Source of the DNA: Acidobacteriota bacterium
Lineage (GTDB): Bacteria > Acidobacteriota > Terriglobia > Terriglobales > Acidobacteriaceae
DNA: 64,000 bases
Direction: 5' to 3'
NCBI GenBank assembly: GCA_013289765.1
Contig: JABCZI010000007.1
Location: 1 to 64,000 of the forward strand
Part shown: positions 35,884-48,533 of the stretch, one piece after another
Layout: each line of letters starts with the position of its first letter
Position numbering within the stretch: position 1 is the stretch's first letter
Notes under the pieces: generated by a model
What the model saw: the letters and a program-made list of their open reading frames with translations, nothing else
Databases searched by the model: none
Told to the model about the DNA's origin: nothing
Position numbers and translations under genes: made by a program

Positions 35884-37806
35884 TTAAGGGAGAGACGTCT
35901 CCACTTGCTGTAGCGGCACGCCGGCAGCCTGCGTCCATTCCGGTGCGGAAAGCAAGAAACTGAGAGTGATCGAGAGGATGTCAGCGTAATGGGACTGGCC
36001 GCGCGAAAAACCGTCCCACATTTGCTGCACTCCGCGAGCATTGAGGAATTGGCTCGCGCCCGACTTACTCGTCAATATTTCCTCAGTCCAGTTGCGCAAT
36101 CCTCCCCGCATCCAAGGCACGAGGGGTACGCGGAATCCCTTTTTCTTTCGGGCCAAATGATTGGGAGGAAGAAAAGTTCCAAGCACTTTGCGCAATAGAT
36201 ATTTGCGCTGATCTCCGCGAAGTTTCATGTGAAGTGGAAGCGAGTAGGCAAACTCAACCACGCGGTGATCAAGAAGCGGCACGCGAACTTCGAGAGAGTT
36301 AGCCATGCTGGCGCGATCGACCTTGGTCAGGATGTCGTCCACCAAATTTGTTTTCAAGTCTAAATAGAAGATTTTCGCCAGCGGGTCGCTGGCCGGAGCT
36401 CGGTCGTAAATCTCGCGAAATAGATCCAACGGATCGTATCCCGCAAGTTCGTGTTTAAGATCGGAGGAGAACAGGCGCGAGCGCATCGCCCCATCCGTAA
36501 TCGTCATCCCGTGCAGATAGGCCTCGCGGGATCCAATCGACAACTGATGCATCACCCGCTGCAGGCGCGCGGGCAGGGAATTATGCTGCCGGTCGCCACT
36601 TGCCTTTTGGAACGGTGATAACAGGGGGCCCCGCGCCAACTCCGGAATGCGACGCCGAATATTTTCCAGCTTCTGCATGCGCACGTAGCGGCTATACCCG
36701 CCGAAATTCTCGTCCCCACCGTCTCCCGACAGAACTACTTTTACTTTCTGACGTGCCAACTGCGACACATAATAGGTAGGAATCGCCGAATGGTCCGGAA
36801 AGGGCTGGTCGTAATAATGCACTAACTGCTCAAGAATCTTGGCTGGCTCTGGAGTAACCACTTGCTGCCTGTGATCCGTCTTGAACAAGCGAGCAACGGA
36901 CAGCGCCTCCGGTAATTCGTTGTATTCCTGCTCATCGAAGCCGATCGAACAGGTGAAGACAGGATCCTTTAGCCTTTCGCTCATCAGAGCGACGACCGTC
37001 GCAGAATCGACACCCCCGCTTAGAAAAGCTCCGAGCGGAACATCGCTCAGTAAGTGGCATTGCACGCTGTCGCGCAAAAGATCGAGTAGCTGCTCCTCGT
37101 ATTCCTTCTCGGTGCGCAAGTCGAGAGTGTGCCCGGTGAGATCCCAGTACTTTTGTTTGCGCACTCCGTTCTTGCCGACGACAAGGCAATGGCCCGGTTC
37201 AAGCGAGTATGCGTTCTGGTAAATTGTCTTTGGTCCAGGAATGTAGAAATAGGTGAACAGATCGGCAATAGCTGTCGGATCTACATCAAGCGCTATCTGA
37301 CCCGACTCGCGGACGCATTTCAGTTCCGACCCGAAAGCGATGCCATCTTTTCCCAAGCCGTAAAAGAGCGGCTTGATGCCGATTCGATCCCGTGCCAGCA
37401 CCAATTGCTGTTTGCGTTGATCCCATATGGCAAGGGCAAACATTCCACGCAATTTTTCAAAGCAATCCTCACCATAATCTTCATACAGGTGAACAATCGC
37501 CTCTGTATCAGATTTTGTACGAAGTATGTGTCCGCGCTGTTCGAGTTCGTGGCGAAGTTGGGGAAAGTTGTAAATCTCGCCGTTAAACACGATCCAGATC
37601 GTGCCATCTTCATTACACATCGGCTGATGGCCGCCCTCGAGATCGATAATGCTGAGCCGCCGGTGTCCGAGCCCCGGGCCTGGCCCCCAATAAAAACCTT
37701 CGCCGTCAGGCCCACGATGCGCGATGAGGCGCGTGATGTGGGTCAGGCGCTCGCGATTCGCCGCACTTCCCGTTTTGTAGTTCCAAATTCCTGAAATTCC
37801 GCACAT
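35884..37806 (-). CDS. asnB: Glutamine-hydrolysing asparagine synthase-type amidotransferase
   Basis: The 640-residue enzyme is complete. It starts MCGISGIWNY, so the catalytic Cys2 of the class II glutaminase domain is present, followed by HRGPDGEG and LGHRRLSIIDLEGG. The synthetase half has the ATP-pyrophosphate loop SGGVDSATVVAL near residue 264, and GDGGDENFGGYSRY. The C-terminus ends with the usual helical part (FRVPLVPWMRGGL onward). It transfers glutamine-derived ammonia to a carboxylate. Within EPS loci such enzymes are thought to amidate an uronic acid or amino-acid substituent rather than to make free asparagine. The gene is the last of the leftward EPS operon, 37 bases downstream of the CapK-like gene. 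It is the only one of three asparagine-synthase relatives here that has all motifs. Confidence 0.92.
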   Translation of the reverse strand: MCGISGIWNYKTGSAANRERLTHITRLIAHRGPDGEGFYWGPGPGLGHRRLSIIDLEGGHQPMCNEDGTIWIVFNGEIYNFPQLRHELEQRGHILRTKSDTEAIVHLYEDYGEDCFEKLRGMFALAIWDQRKQQLVLARDRIGIKPLFYGLGKDGIAFGSELKCVRESGQIALDVDPTAIADLFTYFYIPGPKTIYQNAYSLEPGHCLVVGKNGVRKQKYWDLTGHTLDLRTEKEYEEQLLDLLRDSVQCHLLSDVPLGAFLSGGVDSATVVALMSERLKDPVFTCSIGFDEQEYNELPEALSVARLFKTDHRQQVVTPEPAKILEQLVHYYDQPFPDHSAIPTYYVSQLARQKVKVVLSGDGGDENFGGYSRYVRMQKLENIRRRIPELARGPLLSPFQKASGDRQHNSLPARLQRVMHQLSIGSREAYLHGMTITDGAMRSRLFSSDLKHELAGYDPLDLFREIYDRAPASDPLAKIFYLDLKTNLVDDILTKVDRASMANSLEVRVPLLDHRVVEFAYSLPLHMKLRGDQRKYLLRKVLGTFLPPNHLARKKKGFRVPLVPWMRGGLRNWTEEILTSKSGASQFLNARGVQQMWDGFSRGQSHYADILSITLSFLLSAPEWTQAAGVPLQQVETSLP

Positions 37807-42805: not shown

Positions 42806-45114
42806 CAAACGCGCGCCTCCTGCGTCAAAGTGGGTGAGGCAGCTTTCCTTCGGCTATCATCACGTACTTTCTGCGGTTGGCGGAAGCGAAACCAATCCAG
42901 CTTCAGTCTGAATTCAGCCAGGTTGGTTTCCCAGGGAGTGAAGCGCTTGAGAAGCAACGGATCATCTCCCGGTTCGTTGAGACCCCAGATAGTGGTCACA
43001 GCGGTTTTGAAACCGGCGTCCTGAACCGCATGTGTTGCCTCGCTGTTAAAGTCCCCAGCTTGTCCGAACGGATAGGCGAAGTGCGCAACAGGTTGCTGAA
43101 GGCGCTTTTCGATCGTTCGCTTCGAACCCTCGATTTCGGGTCTGAGCGCGGAGGCAGGAATCTGCGAAAGCACAGGATGAGTAATGGTATGAGCTCCAAA
43201 GCTGACGCCATGTTTGCTCATTAGCCGAACATCTTCCCAGCGCAGCATAAGATTCGGAAGATTCAAATCGGAATCAACTCCGAGTTCGCAGAACACTTGA
43301 TCGAGCGCCGACTTCCGGTTCGCGTCGGGCATTTCCCGCAGCCAGCGTAGAGTGCGCTCCATCAATGCCAACCGCTCGGAATGACCTTTCAAGCCGCCTC
43401 CCGGGCCACAACGATCCACGTAAAAATGCGCACGCGTCGTCAGCTTGAATGCGAGTCTTACCTGGTCGTACCAAGGTAACTGACCGGAATCCATGTATTC
43501 AGTGGCGAGGAATATCGTGGCCGGAATGCCCAATTTCTTTAGGATCGGGAACGCACAAACAAAATTATCCCGGTATCCATCATCAAAGGTAATCGCGATG
43601 CAATATTGATGTTGATCGTAAACTGCACCTTGGGCGACCTGATCCATGGTGACGATCTGGAAGTTTTTTGCAACGTATTCCATCTGAGCGCGGAATGACT
43701 CAATGTCGAGACCTCCCAAGAAAGGATCGCGATCATTATTCACACGGTGATACTGGAAAATGTGTAGCACCGGCTGCTCGCGGCGGCGAAATGGGAGCGG
43801 CGACCTTCGACGGACAGGACTCCATGTATATTTCGTCGCAATTGTCCTTCCCGCCTCTGCGAGCGAAGACGAATAGGCGGAAGCGGCGACTTGGCGTGCA
43901 ATCCGGCGGAAGCGCGAAGGGTGCTCAGCTACGCATTCGGAAGCCTGCGTCGATTGTTTTTTTCTTGCTGCCTTCATCAGAATCTGTTTTCGCCAAGTAA
44001 GCACGGGCTCGGGGGTAGCCTTCGCGAACCTTTCCCGCAACTGAGTGCGTAATTGTGGGAGGCTCAGCGCCACGGCTTGACCACTCGAACTAGCAGACAT
44101 CAGCAGGCGAGTGCTCGATACTGCAGTAGCGCCCCAATCGAGTTTGTAAGTTGCTGCGCCGGCCAGAAAGTCATACTCGCTCAATTCAGCCTCAATCCAA
44201 TGCCGCATCAGCCAAGCTCGGAGAGCAACTCCGGGTCGTATTGTCGAAAAGTCAGGATCGTAACCTTCTTGAAGGAGGTGAAAGGAGTTGTTGTAAATCA
44301 ATCCGTATTGCAGTGCGAGTGGGCGCTCTCCCCAATCCAGCCGATGAAACGCCAACCAGCCTTGTTCCAACGAGGCACGGGAGATGTCATGATAGAAATT
44401 GCGCTTTGCGGGATCGCGAAACACCCCGGGCAGATCTTCGCCAGCCCACCTTCGCGTGTGCAAATCAAACAATAATGGGAGCCACTCTTCAAGCTCACGC
44501 TCGGAACTGCATCGCGTGGGGTTAACTTTTACGGACTTGCTCAAAAGCGCGAGTGACGATCGAACCTTCGTCCTGAATCTTGGCTCGAGAATACTAAGGT
44601 AATTGTCCCAACTATCTGGCAGACCCAGGGTGGCACAAGGAATCGGTACAGTGCTGAACTTCCATTTCTTTTCGCGGGCATACTCGACTAAAGCCGCAAG
44701 GCAGCTCGACTTTTGCCGCGGGCCATTCATCTCCATCCAGTCCCAGGATTCGCGATCATTCCCAAGATAATCGGCAAACGCCGCAATCGATTCGGCTTCG
44801 CGACCGTGCAGCGCAAAGCAATCCAGGTAATCCGAATCGTGAGAACCGTCACCGATGAGGCGGAGCCGCTTCCAAGTTATGCCATAGAGGCGAACCGGCT
44901 CCCGATAAATCGGAGCAATCCCTACTAATTCCTCTTTATCCCATGCGGCCAGGACAAAAATCTCACGCCCAGTGCCGTAGTTCCTCCACCACGCCTCGCA
45001 CCACTGCCATGTGAGAAACACTGTGTCGCTCGAACTGCGCGAGAGCAGGCCGTTCCATCGCAATCGCAGATCTCGGACTTCCTGCCATGTCCGATATCGC
45101 TCTACGTGCAGCAT
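42805..45114 (-). CDS. GNAT-type acyltransferase fused to polysaccharide deacetylase
   Basis: The 769-residue protein carries two enzymes. Residues ~1-365 are a GNAT/FemAB-like (BioF2/Acetyltransf_6) acyltransferase (VFLTWQWCEAWWRNYG, then YNNSFHLLQEGYDPDFSTIRPGV). A basic linker of ~75 residues follows. Residues ~455-745 are a NodB-type deacetylase with TFDDGY (metal-binding Asp) near 520, HTITHP near 640, and AYPFG. Fusion suggests that deacetylation and re-acylation of an amino sugar happen on one chain, which is an inference. There is no signal peptide, so it would act in the cytoplasm on a lipid-linked or nucleotide sugar. The start ATG overlaps the upstream gene by 13 bases, and GAGGTGG lies five bases before it. 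The gene is in the middle of the EPS operon. Confidence 0.85.
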   Translation of the reverse strand: MLHVERYRTWQEVRDLRLRWNGLLSRSSSDTVFLTWQWCEAWWRNYGTGREIFVLAAWDKEELVGIAPIYREPVRLYGITWKRLRLIGDGSHDSDYLDCFALHGREAESIAAFADYLGNDRESWDWMEMNGPRQKSSCLAALVEYAREKKWKFSTVPIPCATLGLPDSWDNYLSILEPRFRTKVRSSLALLSKSVKVNPTRCSSERELEEWLPLLFDLHTRRWAGEDLPGVFRDPAKRNFYHDISRASLEQGWLAFHRLDWGERPLALQYGLIYNNSFHLLQEGYDPDFSTIRPGVALRAWLMRHWIEAELSEYDFLAGAATYKLDWGATAVSSTRLLMSASSSGQAVALSLPQLRTQLRERFAKATPEPVLTWRKQILMKAARKKQSTQASECVAEHPSRFRRIARQVAASAYSSSLAEAGRTIATKYTWSPVRRRSPLPFRRREQPVLHIFQYHRVNNDRDPFLGGLDIESFRAQMEYVAKNFQIVTMDQVAQGAVYDQHQYCIAITFDDGYRDNFVCAFPILKKLGIPATIFLATEYMDSGQLPWYDQVRLAFKLTTRAHFYVDRCGPGGGLKGHSERLALMERTLRWLREMPDANRKSALDQVFCELGVDSDLNLPNLMLRWEDVRLMSKHGVSFGAHTITHPVLSQIPASALRPEIEGSKRTIEKRLQQPVAHFAYPFGQAGDFNSEATHAVQDAGFKTAVTTIWGLNEPGDDPLLLKRFTPWETNLAEFRLKLDWFRFRQPQKVRDDSRRKAASPTLTQEARV

Positions 45115-46952
45115 GCTGCCACCTCAACATGCTGACGGTGCCACAGTTCAAGCACAAGAAACACCCACAACAAGTCTCCAAAATATGGAGTCTCATCCTG
45201 CTGCATGTCGGAAAATAATTGTTCCACGAATTCCCGGCGGAAATATCCGCGCTGATAAGTTCTGGGATCGTACAGAACCTCTTTCGCCCAAGCGTGCCAA
45301 TGAGGATCGCTCTTCAGCCAGAACCCAATCGGCAGACCGAAGCCATGCTTCTTTTTCTTTAGGATCGCCTCGGGCAGCAGATTGCGAGTGGCGCGTTTGA
45401 AGAGATAGCGCTTTTCCAGAAGACGCACTTTCAGGGCCGCCGGTAATCTTCCACTAAACTCGGCGAGTTCGTGATCAAGGTATGGAAAGCGGACGCGAAT
45501 GCCGGCCATTTCGGCGGTTTGGGTGACTTTGGGGAGGTCGTCGTCGCCGAGCGTCATTTTGACGTCCACGTATAAAAGCCGATTCAGTTCTGTCTTCGCA
45601 GGCGCGGACCCATAGTGCAGACGCGCAGTGGTTAACAGATCAGAATGACCGTTGCGGAACGGCATGTCACTGCCCAACACCAAGTCCGGCGAGAACCTTC
45701 GCAGCAGGCGCCAACGAAAATAGCGATCGGGATTACCGGTGTTGCAGCGGCGAATATAATTTTTGGCCTTGCCAAACGGGCCGACGGTCAATGAACTCCC
45801 GAATACGGCTGGCTCGATCAGCCATCGGCGAGCGGAGTTCGGGATCCGTTGGTAAAAATCGAAAATCTGCTCCTCTCGATATCGCTCGTTCCCGCCAAAC
45901 AATTCGTCTCCTCCGTCTCCAGCCAGCAACACTTCCATCCCGCGTTCGCGGGCGAGTTTTGCGCACCAGTAAGTAGGAATTGCCGAGGAGTTTCCAAAGG
46001 GCTCATCGTAGGTAGAGACAATTTTATCGACTGAATTTCGGGCTTCAACTGGTCCCAGTTTGTCTTCGAAGTGCTGCGCTTGGAAATGCTTCGCTGCCAG
46101 GTGAGCATACTGCAGCTCGTTGAACCGGTCCTCGGAAAATCCAATCGAAAACGCATTCACCGGCGCTGAGTAGAGACGCGTCAGAAGACCGAGGATGGAA
46201 CTGCTATCAGTGCCGCCGCTCAGAAAACAACCAGTGGTCGAAAGATTCAAGTCAGCAGAAGTGACCCTTACAGCCGCCTCCATTCGAGAAAGGAGTTCTT
46301 CGGACAATGCATGGTTCGATCGGCGATCGTCCTCCGGATACCGCATATCCCAATAGCGCGTCTTGCTTGCGCCTTTTTCCGTCCACAGAACATATTCTCC
46401 GGGCGCAACGCGGGCAATGCCTGCAAAAGCTGTCCTGGGGATCGGAACCACGTTGTAGACCAGGTATTCCGTGATGGCTGACAAATCAACATTCTTCTGC
46501 ACCCTGTTGCTAGCGAAGATAGCGCTCGGACGGGTAGCGAATATGATTTCCGAATCGGTTTTCGCGTAACAGATGCGCTTGATTCCAAAGCGATCTACGG
46601 CCAACATCAAGGTCCCGGTTTTGACATCCCAAATGGCGAGCGCAAACGCCCCACTGAGCTTATGCAGAAACAAGGGGCCTTCCGATAGATAAAGGCGAGC
46701 AATTGCTTCCGCAGCACTCGTTTCATTCGAAATCACCGGGCTGTAAAGGTCTGAGTCGCAAGCCACGAGCAAATGTTCGTACGAGCTGAATGCGGCCGAA
46801 GGCGCAACCGCAACGGAGCCGACGCCCACGTGTGGCAAAACTAGACTGTCTGCCGGAGCCTTGTGCGGAGCAAGGCAAGAGCGCATGGCCTCCAGGTCGC
46901 GCCCGGTCACGGGCATCCCGTCGTTAGTTGTTGCTATGCCGTAAATCGCCAT
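45102..46952 (-). CDS. Asparagine synthase-like protein lacking glutaminase cysteine
   Basis: The 616-residue protein has a recognisable class II glutaminase-like N-domain and a complete synthetase half with SGGTDSSSILGL near residue 245, GDGGDELFGGNERY and a C-terminal helical region ending LWVFLVLELWHRQHV. However it starts MAIYGIATTNDG instead of MCGI, so the catalytic Cys2 is replaced and the HRGPDG segment is also changed (PHKAPAD). Glutamine hydrolysis should be lost. It may use free ammonia, take ammonia or an amine from a partner, or ligate something else. A remnant of a second synthetase that keeps MCGI lies 26 bases upstream. It overlaps the next gene by 13 bases. A start further upstream with a Cys was looked for and not found in frame. 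Confidence 0.88.
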   Translation of the reverse strand: MAIYGIATTNDGMPVTGRDLEAMRSCLAPHKAPADSLVLPHVGVGSVAVAPSAAFSSYEHLLVACDSDLYSPVISNETSAAEAIARLYLSEGPLFLHKLSGAFALAIWDVKTGTLMLAVDRFGIKRICYAKTDSEIIFATRPSAIFASNRVQKNVDLSAITEYLVYNVVPIPRTAFAGIARVAPGEYVLWTEKGASKTRYWDMRYPEDDRRSNHALSEELLSRMEAAVRVTSADLNLSTTGCFLSGGTDSSSILGLLTRLYSAPVNAFSIGFSEDRFNELQYAHLAAKHFQAQHFEDKLGPVEARNSVDKIVSTYDEPFGNSSAIPTYWCAKLARERGMEVLLAGDGGDELFGGNERYREEQIFDFYQRIPNSARRWLIEPAVFGSSLTVGPFGKAKNYIRRCNTGNPDRYFRWRLLRRFSPDLVLGSDMPFRNGHSDLLTTARLHYGSAPAKTELNRLLYVDVKMTLGDDDLPKVTQTAEMAGIRVRFPYLDHELAEFSGRLPAALKVRLLEKRYLFKRATRNLLPEAILKKKKHGFGLPIGFWLKSDPHWHAWAKEVLYDPRTYQRGYFRREFVEQLFSDMQQDETPYFGDLLWVFLVLELWHRQHVEVAACCT

Positions 46953-46978
46953 GGGCTACTCAAGCTAACACTCGCGTG

Positions 46979-47335
46979 TTACGCCTTTGTAAATGCATTG
47001 TTACGGTCGCTCGAAGCTTCAGGTTGGTGCCGGAAAGTCCTTGCCATTGCCTGAACATACACACTCCCCCACAGAATGGCTGAATGGTCCTGGATTTTAT
47101 TGTGGTGACGATTCCAGAGGAGGCGCAAGTACGGCACGTTGAGCCACTCATTGGATTCAAACATCAACTCGTGCGCCCGTTCCAGCAAATCGCTCCTGAA
47201 CCATTCCACGGCGGGCTCGAAGTGATAGCCCGCGTCATCAGGACCGCGGTGCCAGAGCGAATCGGCCATCTTTTCGATGGATTGGCGGCGCACAGGTGCA
47301 CCGTTAAAATCAATAATTCCGCAGATCCCGCACAT
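46979..47335 (-). pseudogene. Asparagine synthetase with large in-frame internal deletion
   Basis: This 118-codon frame is intact but carries only the two ends of an asparagine synthetase. Residues 1-42 (MCGICGIIDFNG ... HRGPDDAGYHF) are the start of the glutaminase domain, including Cys2. From about residue 43 (VEWFRSDLLERAHELMF ... YLRLLWNRHHNKIQDHS ... LWGSVYVQ) it matches the last ~60 residues of such enzymes, as seen in the neighbours at 35884 and 45102 (for example VPWMRGGLRNWTEEIL and FWLKSDPHWHAWAKEVL). About 500 residues between them are absent, while the frame is retained. The junction lies near PAVEWF. It overlaps the glycosyltransferase stop upstream by 26 bases. It could still make a small protein; a new function is possible but unsupported. 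Confidence 0.8.
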
Positions 47336-48533
47336 AACTATCTCGCTTTACGCTGCTGTGGGCCGACGAATGCGCCCGCTCTGAATCCATCAGACCGCTG
47401 TACATCTCGCTGTAGCGGTTCACCATTCGCTCAATGCTGAATTGCGTTACGATACGCTCGCGGGCCCTTTTTCCAAGCGATTCTAGCCATTCGGGTGAGG
47501 CTGCGAGCTGCACGATAAACTCAGAAATCTGCTTCGCATCCCCTGATGGGACCAGCAATCCCGAAAGCTCATGTTCCACAACTTCCCGGTTTCCACCAAC
47601 CGCTGTGGCGATTGGTGTAATTCCGACAGCCATGGCCTCGAGCAGAGTGTTCGACATCCCTTCTGATACGGAGGGCAGTACGAAAAGGTCAAAGCTGTTG
47701 AGCCAATCGGCCACATTCTTCGATTCGCCGGTAAATACTGTCCTGCGCGCTAAATGAGGTGTGCGCGACAATTGATTCTCCAAAGCGGCTCGTTGTGGGC
47801 CCTCGCCAACAATCACAAGCTTCAAATCCACGCCCTTCCTGAGAGCCACCTCGGCAGCGCGCAAGAGCGTAATGTGGTCTTTAACCGGATCGAGGCGTCC
47901 CACCGTTCCGACTACCATCGTGTGAGGGCCGGCTGCCAGCTTCGCTCGGACCTGGGAGCGCATCCGCGGATTCGGAGAGAATTGTCTGACATCCACCCCG
48001 TTTGGAATGACGTCAAAAAAGTCGGGTTTCATCCCGAGTTGCTCGCAGTAGAATTCCCGCAATTCTTCGGAAACGCAGAAGACTCGGTCAGCACAGGCGT
48101 AGGAAATTCTTCGGAATATACGCCTTCGCCGGGGCTGAGGTCCCATGGTTTGGAGATCGCGGCCATGCTCGCTATGCACGATGGCGCGGATTCCTGCAAG
48201 TTTTGCAGCTAGAGTAGCTTCGATGGTCGCCCAATTCCTGGAATGAATGATGTCCGGGCGCTCGCGGCGAAACAATCTCGTCAGTTGCGGAACCAAGAAC
48301 GCTGCCTTTTCCGCCGAGCGTTCGAGACAAATAGTGTGCGGCGGTTGCGAGACAGGAGCCGCCACCAATGTGCATACACTCTGCTGGAACCGAGTTGGAT
48401 CCAAGGCACAGATGAGCCTGCGCACAACCATTTCCGTACCACCGGTTGCCAACGTTCGTACAACGTGCATCACACGGATTGGTTTCGCCGCTCGGTGGTT
48501 CCCCGACGTCACTGATTTCTGAGACCAGTTCAC
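47310..48533 (-). CDS. XrtA-type GT4 glycosyltransferase (TIGR03088-like)
   Basis: The 407-residue protein is a GT4 enzyme. It starts with VMHVVRTLATGGTEMVVRRL, carries SRNWATIEATLAAKLAGIRAIVHSEHGRD (the signature text of the XrtA/PEP-CTERM-associated TIGR03088 group), and ends with the C-half motifs VIPNGVDVRQF, VGTVGRLDPVKDH, LPSVSEGMSNTLLEAMA (EX7E). It is likely to transfer one sugar during assembly of the EPS repeat on the inner face of the membrane. The start GTG at 48533 has a GGAGAG box about eight bases upstream. It overlaps the downstream asparagine-synthetase remnant by 26 bases and follows the other XrtA-type transferase by 79 bases. Family membership is assigned from the motif, not from a profile search. 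Confidence 0.88.
   Translation of the reverse strand: MNWSQKSVTSGNHRAAKPIRVMHVVRTLATGGTEMVVRRLICALDPTRFQQSVCTLVAAPVSQPPHTICLERSAEKAAFLVPQLTRLFRRERPDIIHSRNWATIEATLAAKLAGIRAIVHSEHGRDLQTMGPQPRRRRIFRRISYACADRVFCVSEELREFYCEQLGMKPDFFDVIPNGVDVRQFSPNPRMRSQVRAKLAAGPHTMVVGTVGRLDPVKDHITLLRAAEVALRKGVDLKLVIVGEGPQRAALENQLSRTPHLARRTVFTGESKNVADWLNSFDLFVLPSVSEGMSNTLLEAMAVGITPIATAVGGNREVVEHELSGLLVPSGDAKQISEFIVQLAASPEWLESLGKRARERIVTQFSIERMVNRYSEMYSGLMDSERAHSSAHSSVKRDSYVRDLRNY

Follow-up and report, generated by a model that had tools for sequence, protein, structure and literature searches.

The 118-codon open reading frame (ORF) that adjoins stp2 in a cluster of XrtA exopolysaccharide genes is very probably a pseudogene, the remnant of an XrtA/PEP-CTERM-like amidotransferase gene (asnA) that has undergone an in-frame deletion and a frame slip. 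We regard this reading as well supported because a whole orthologue occupies the same slot in a relative, because a second lesion accompanies the deletion, and because the C-terminal half appears to be unconstrained. It makes a clear case of gene death in a packed operon that retains two paralogues. The first-pass annotation of the window (the whole stretch of DNA analyzed, 64,000 nucleotides) had described a 118-codon frame with its start codon, and this frame is indeed present, without internal stop, on the minus strand (Table 1).

Table 1. Positions in the window of the ORF, its parts, and the related genes of the cluster
Feature	Position	Strand	Match or remark
118-codon ORF, ATG to TAA	46979-47335	minus (47335 down to 46979)	
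Remnant 5' end, residues 1-41 (MCGICGI ... HRGPDDAGYHFEP), start codon retained	47213..47335	-	TIGR03108 positions 1-44; 29/43 identity with G356 asnA over residues 1-43
Deletion junction, codons 41-43, P-A-V	47207..47215	-	
Remnant 3' part, residues 42-89 (AVEWFR ... DHSAILW)	47069..47212	-	Homologous to G356 asnA 555-602; relatives' profile 561-622; 21/46 identity over residues 44-89
Interval of the frame slip relative to the whole gene	47059..47068	-	
Out-of-frame remnant MFRQWQG, next frame	47038..47058	-	7/7 residues and 17/21 bases as in G356 asnA
ORF stop TAA	46979..46981	-	Reached because of the frame slip
Ancestral-frame stop TGA	46960..46962	-	7 bases before asn2 start; gap in G356 is 3 bases
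stp2-type XrtA-system glycosyltransferase, upstream neighbor	47310..48533	-	TIGR03088, 299.4 bits, under the cut-off of 409.05
asn2, full-length AsnB-type paralogue without Cys at position 2	45102..46952	-	
asn1, full-length AsnB-type paralogue, far end of the cluster	35884..37806	-	TIGR03108, 705.9 bits, under the cut-off of 816.9

Both ends of the ORF were placed by profile, in agreement with the earlier description of a synthetase reduced to its two ends, and the loss then put at about 500 residues amounts to about 512 codons relative to the asnA gene of G356, a genome of the same family. The NCBIfam model TIGR03108 matched residues 1-43 (44.8 bits, E 6.9e-12, in two stretches of which only the best was located), and this whole-protein score lies under the curated cut-off of 816.9. 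A profile that we made from eight full-length relatives, with the window excluded, and searched against six short frames placed the ends of the ORF at positions 1-44 (i-E 4.4e-13) and 561-622 (i-E 1.3e-9) of its 624 positions, so that the C-terminal part, up to residue 89, does fall in the synthetase C terminus. A Pfam search of the 118 residues found neither a glutaminase nor a synthetase domain. The comparison with AsnB family profiles that had been proposed as a check was thus positive for TIGR03108 on the N-terminal 43 residues and for the relatives' profile on both ends, and negative for Pfam.

In pairwise alignments with G356 asnA, the N part (residues 1-43) scored 158 against a shuffle maximum of 38, and the C part 118 against 51. 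The ends had also been said to align with the paralogues at 35884 and 45102. The alignment stands for the N part with the former (score 78, shuffle maximum 41), is marginal with the latter (score 38, shuffle maximum 39), and fails for the C part with both (score 35 and shuffle mean 28.8 for 35884; score 30 and shuffle mean 30.4 for 45102). We rejected these two paralogues as the parent, since they belong to two other clades and their match to the C part does not rise above shuffles.

The search for a full-length gene at orthologous loci, which the first-pass annotation had recommended, succeeded: G356 carries a whole 639-residue asnA in the slot between stp2 and asn2 (L085:10100-12016), and of all sequences found, its product comes closest to the N terminus of the remnant (66-69 % identity over residues 1-43). 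The G356 cluster is collinear with that of the window, as tested with 14 other proteins of the window: 13 match in the same order, and only stp1 has its match elsewhere. TIGR03108 gave 753.4 bits for G356 asnA, under its cut-off of 816.9, and 830.1 for the asnA-type protein of G200. A tree of 23 proteins resolved three types, namely, asnA (8 rows, support 96/94), asn1 (window and G356, 100/100), and asn2 (9 rows, 100/100), and the remnant and G356 asnA grouped together on the 89 joined columns (92/83) and on the N segment (86.4/87). On the C segment (48 columns), the remnant was placed not with G356 but near paralogues, with a support of only 43.6/37. Our view that both ends probably descend from one gene rests on the N-segment and joined trees, on the pairwise scores, and on the shared slot.

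We read the order of genes around the slot in the 10 relatives that had an stp2 match and fetched surroundings. The order stp2-asnA-asn2 was found in six of them (G356, G362, G397, G143, G133, and G219), and asn2 directly follows stp2 in G200 and G476, where the slot is empty (about 35 and 60 bases between matches); the order differs in G077, and the contig of G344 ends inside asnA. More broadly, stp2-type matches occurred in 33 genomes, only some of whose loci were viewed beyond flanks of 1.5 kb; of the loci viewed with short flanks, three (L045, L047, and L050) contain an asn-type gene that is arranged differently, and in L046 and L048 no such gene appears. The stp2-asnA-asn2 order therefore does not hold throughout the class. 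G200 possesses an asnA-type gene (L082:151-2025) elsewhere in the cluster and in the opposite orientation, which groups with other lineages and not with G356 (100/99), possibly as a replacement by transfer.

About 1.5 kb has been lost from the interior of the gene, or 512 codons as measured on G356 asnA, with the junction in frame, and a frame slip after residue 89 replaces the native end. The two points of G356 asnA that match the junction each carry a proline codon (P42 and P554, 512 codons apart). The deletion may have occurred by slippage or by illegitimate recombination between short matching sequences; only the shared proline codon is visible at its sides because the parent sequence is lost. 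Queried with G356 asnA, the window's own genome did not yield the missing middle as a separate copy: the matches were to asn1, asn2, three more full-length paralogues (two on C1 and one on C3), the two ends of the remnant, and one locus on C2. The idea that the middle had moved elsewhere was rejected, as the C2 locus, the only match that starts inside the missing stretch (residues 44-148 of the query), is a purF gene (539.3 bits, cut-off 350).

The second lesion lies near the end of the ORF. The frame had been reported as kept, and it is kept to residue 89, but beyond LW the ancestral reading continues in the next frame, and the C-terminal end LWGSVYVQ, quoted as synthetase, is homologous only as far as LW. 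After LW, the ORF reads GSVYVQAMARTF, and translation in the next frame gives GVCMFRQWQG, to which AVFMFRQWQG corresponds in G356; at the place of the slipped frame, the six other relatives in the comparison show LM[FY]xKW or LMYRKW. Against the end of G356, the slipped frame scored 47 (maximum of 3000 shuffles, 39) and the ORF's own frame of the tail scored 16, under the shuffle mean of 19.9, and the next frame outscored the ORF frame in 7 of the 7 relatives compared. The slipped stretch was not significant by itself in the profile search (model positions 611-620, -4.3 bits, E 1.5), and the case for the frame slip rests on its position together with its likeness to G356. On these alignments, the last 29 residues of the ORF are an out-of-frame reading.

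In proteins of this type, the N-terminal Cys and the LGHRRLSIID, NGEIYN, and SDTE motifs form the glutaminase site, and SGGxDS is the ATP-pyrophosphatase loop of the synthetase domain. Glutaminase activity needs residues far beyond the first 41, and synthetase activity needs the SGGxDS loop. The remnant retains the MCG start (MCGICGI, with the N-terminal Cys) and HRGPDD. LGHRRLSIID, NGEIYN, and SDTE, all present in G356 asnA, are within the stretch deleted from the remnant, as is SGGxDS. Most residues needed for catalysis are thus predicted to fall in the deleted part. Any peptide produced would be expected to lack both glutaminase and synthetase activity, because the rest of the glutaminase site and the SGGxDS loop are gone.

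Since third positions are near saturation, we did not use dN/dS and instead counted the changes specific to each lineage over 41 and 48 codons with six outgroups, which are related to each other, so that the tests are not independent. Over residues 42-89, the window showed 10 to 13 changes of its own and G356 showed 0 to 2 (six outgroups, binomial p 0.0002-0.039). Over residues 1-41, the corresponding counts were 3 to 5 and 0 to 4, without a clear excess (chi2 0.00-4.00), and 10 of 11 positions that are invariant in eight relatives are retained. For stp2, femAB, and asn2, window and G356 were balanced in 12 of 12 tests (chi2 <= 1.85). Identity with G356 at the three codon positions was flat for residues 42-89 (0.65/0.65/0.54; G356 against seven others averages about 0.60/0.74/0.38) and was 0.76/0.88/0.41 for residues 1-41. 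The contrast between the halves reached p < 0.05 with one of the six outgroups (0.025; the others, 0.077-0.27). These counts suggest that residues 42-89 evolve without visible constraint and faster than in the orthologue. Because residues 1-41 look constrained, they count against the pseudogene reading; there may be a reason for their conservation, or too little time may have passed for decay to show. The earlier phrase "a pseudogene caught early" is borne out as regards the pseudogene, by the orthologue, the lesions, and the decay of the C-terminal half, and "early" is only partly apt given the frame slip and the many replacements.

A reading compatible with a pseudogene is that of a translational relay, in which the peptide is useless and the open frame is selected so that ribosomes coming off stp2 are carried on to asn2 without polarity. 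The genes of the cluster are tightly packed with overlapping ends (45102/45114, 42805/42808, and 41528/41531), the 3' end of stp2 and the start of the ORF overlap by 26 bases, and 26 bases separate the ORF stop from the asn2 ATG (46952). The in-frame junction also favors a relay, but a deletion has one chance in three of being in frame, and G200 and G476 do without any gene in the slot; we consider selection for such a relay unlikely. The more specific proposal that a catalytically dead frame is kept open as a relay coupling stp2 to asn2, with selection acting on its first 41 codons, strikes us as quite improbable. If true, it would mean that a gene has been reduced to a spacer ORF in which the passage of ribosomes matters and the product does not.

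The alternative offered by the first-pass annotation, a retained mini-protein in which the joined ends would form a small functional fold, for instance as a binding partner of the asn1 or asn2 protein, found little support, and we hold it to be very improbable. The start codon is retained and the ORF is open, and only the well-kept first 41 residues favor it, against which stand the out-of-frame reading of the last 29 residues, the relaxed constraint in the C-terminal part, and the failure to see a short form in any relative. Across 398 genomes of the family, the window's own included, no second mini-form was found at E 1e-7 or better: 20 genomes had a match, and among the 22 matches listed, the 21 others lie in frames of 388 to 754 codons except that of G421, whose 253-codon frame runs off its contig. 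In the genus (45 genomes, own included), only the window's own match covers both ends among the matches listed. A wider scan of titled public contigs from 80 of 203 relatives, which may omit the window's own genome or a very near one and is not a strain-level comparison, revealed none with N and C matches close together; 6 of its 84 N-end matches lie in frames of less than 400 codons, five of which run off the end of the locus, and the sixth, a stretch of 76 codons in L108, has no C-terminal match within 600 bases.

We checked 14 short or suspicious frames, 13 from the genus search (one of them, G017:C188, also from the family search) plus that of G421; the short frames listed at G001:C178, G044:C16, and G000:C2, whose matches are confined to other parts of the query, were outside this check. 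Thirteen of the 14 run off contig ends. The exception, L040, was rejected as a second mini-form, as it is a different broken gene. This locus (L040:1298-2765, on G017:C77, from the same genus) contains an AsnB-type gene broken into fragments that are read in different frames, with glycosyltransferase-like and FemAB-like matches nearby. Among the papers listed by full-text searches of the literature, no title concerns the remnant.

That the gene is full length in the organism and was broken by assembly or base calling is scarcely credible: the slip does adjoin a G run, where base-calling errors are frequent, but the C-terminal half has replacements unexpected in a living gene, the junction sides of G356 asnA share little beyond one codon, no other part of the assembly yielded the missing middle, and the contig measures 295,598 bases in a genome that is 97.63 % complete in 18 contigs.

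We return to the pseudogene and to the genes that outlive it. XrtA/PEP-CTERM exopolysaccharide genes surround the ORF, with stp1 and femAB above their curated NCBIfam cut-offs. AsnB proteins with and without the Cys recur as pairs in these clusters. The asn2 protein of the window retains its synthetase domain (SGGTDS), and MCG begins none of the nine asn2 proteins compared (MAIYGI in the window, MAICGI in G356, MAVAGI in G200, MSGICG in five, and a start without MCG in G077); because of this, a glutamine-using partner may still be wanted. That partner could be asn1, which retains the glutaminase and synthetase motifs named earlier and has an orthologue at the far end of the G356 cluster (66-67 % identity). 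The loss of asnA may have been tolerated because asn1 and asn2 remain. An open frame left in the slot may also do little harm, as it would bring ribosomes from stp2 to within 26 bases of the asn2 start and would thereby preserve downstream expression. The cluster (35884-57344) has a patchy distribution: an stp2 match of E 1e-70 or better was found in 6 of 398 family genomes, among which the window's genome is the only one of its genus, and among 61 relatives, two genus-mates show only 30-35 % matches near E 1e-43. Transfer of the cluster between genera is possible.

Our results describe a gene that is decaying in an ordinary way rather than a new mini-protein, and they alter nothing fundamental. 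They call for caution in two respects, as an ORF that runs from start to stop with recognizable ends can be a pseudogene, and matching by eye can extend homology past a frame slip. Among known families, the remnant best matches TIGR03108 (eps_aminotran_1, XrtA/PEP-CTERM system amidotransferase) and has XrtA-system neighbors; unlike members of that family, it is without about 512 codons, its frame has slipped near the end, and it scores 44.8 bits against a cut-off of 816.9. It has its slot and neighbors in common with the G356 orthologue, whereas the G356 copy is full length. Bacterial pseudogenes formed by internal deletion are a known general kind, and with them the remnant shares the deletion, the frame slip, the relaxed constraint seen over residues 42-89, and the surviving paralogues. 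Unlike such pseudogenes in general, its deletion is in frame, and it is therefore still an ORF that a gene caller lists.
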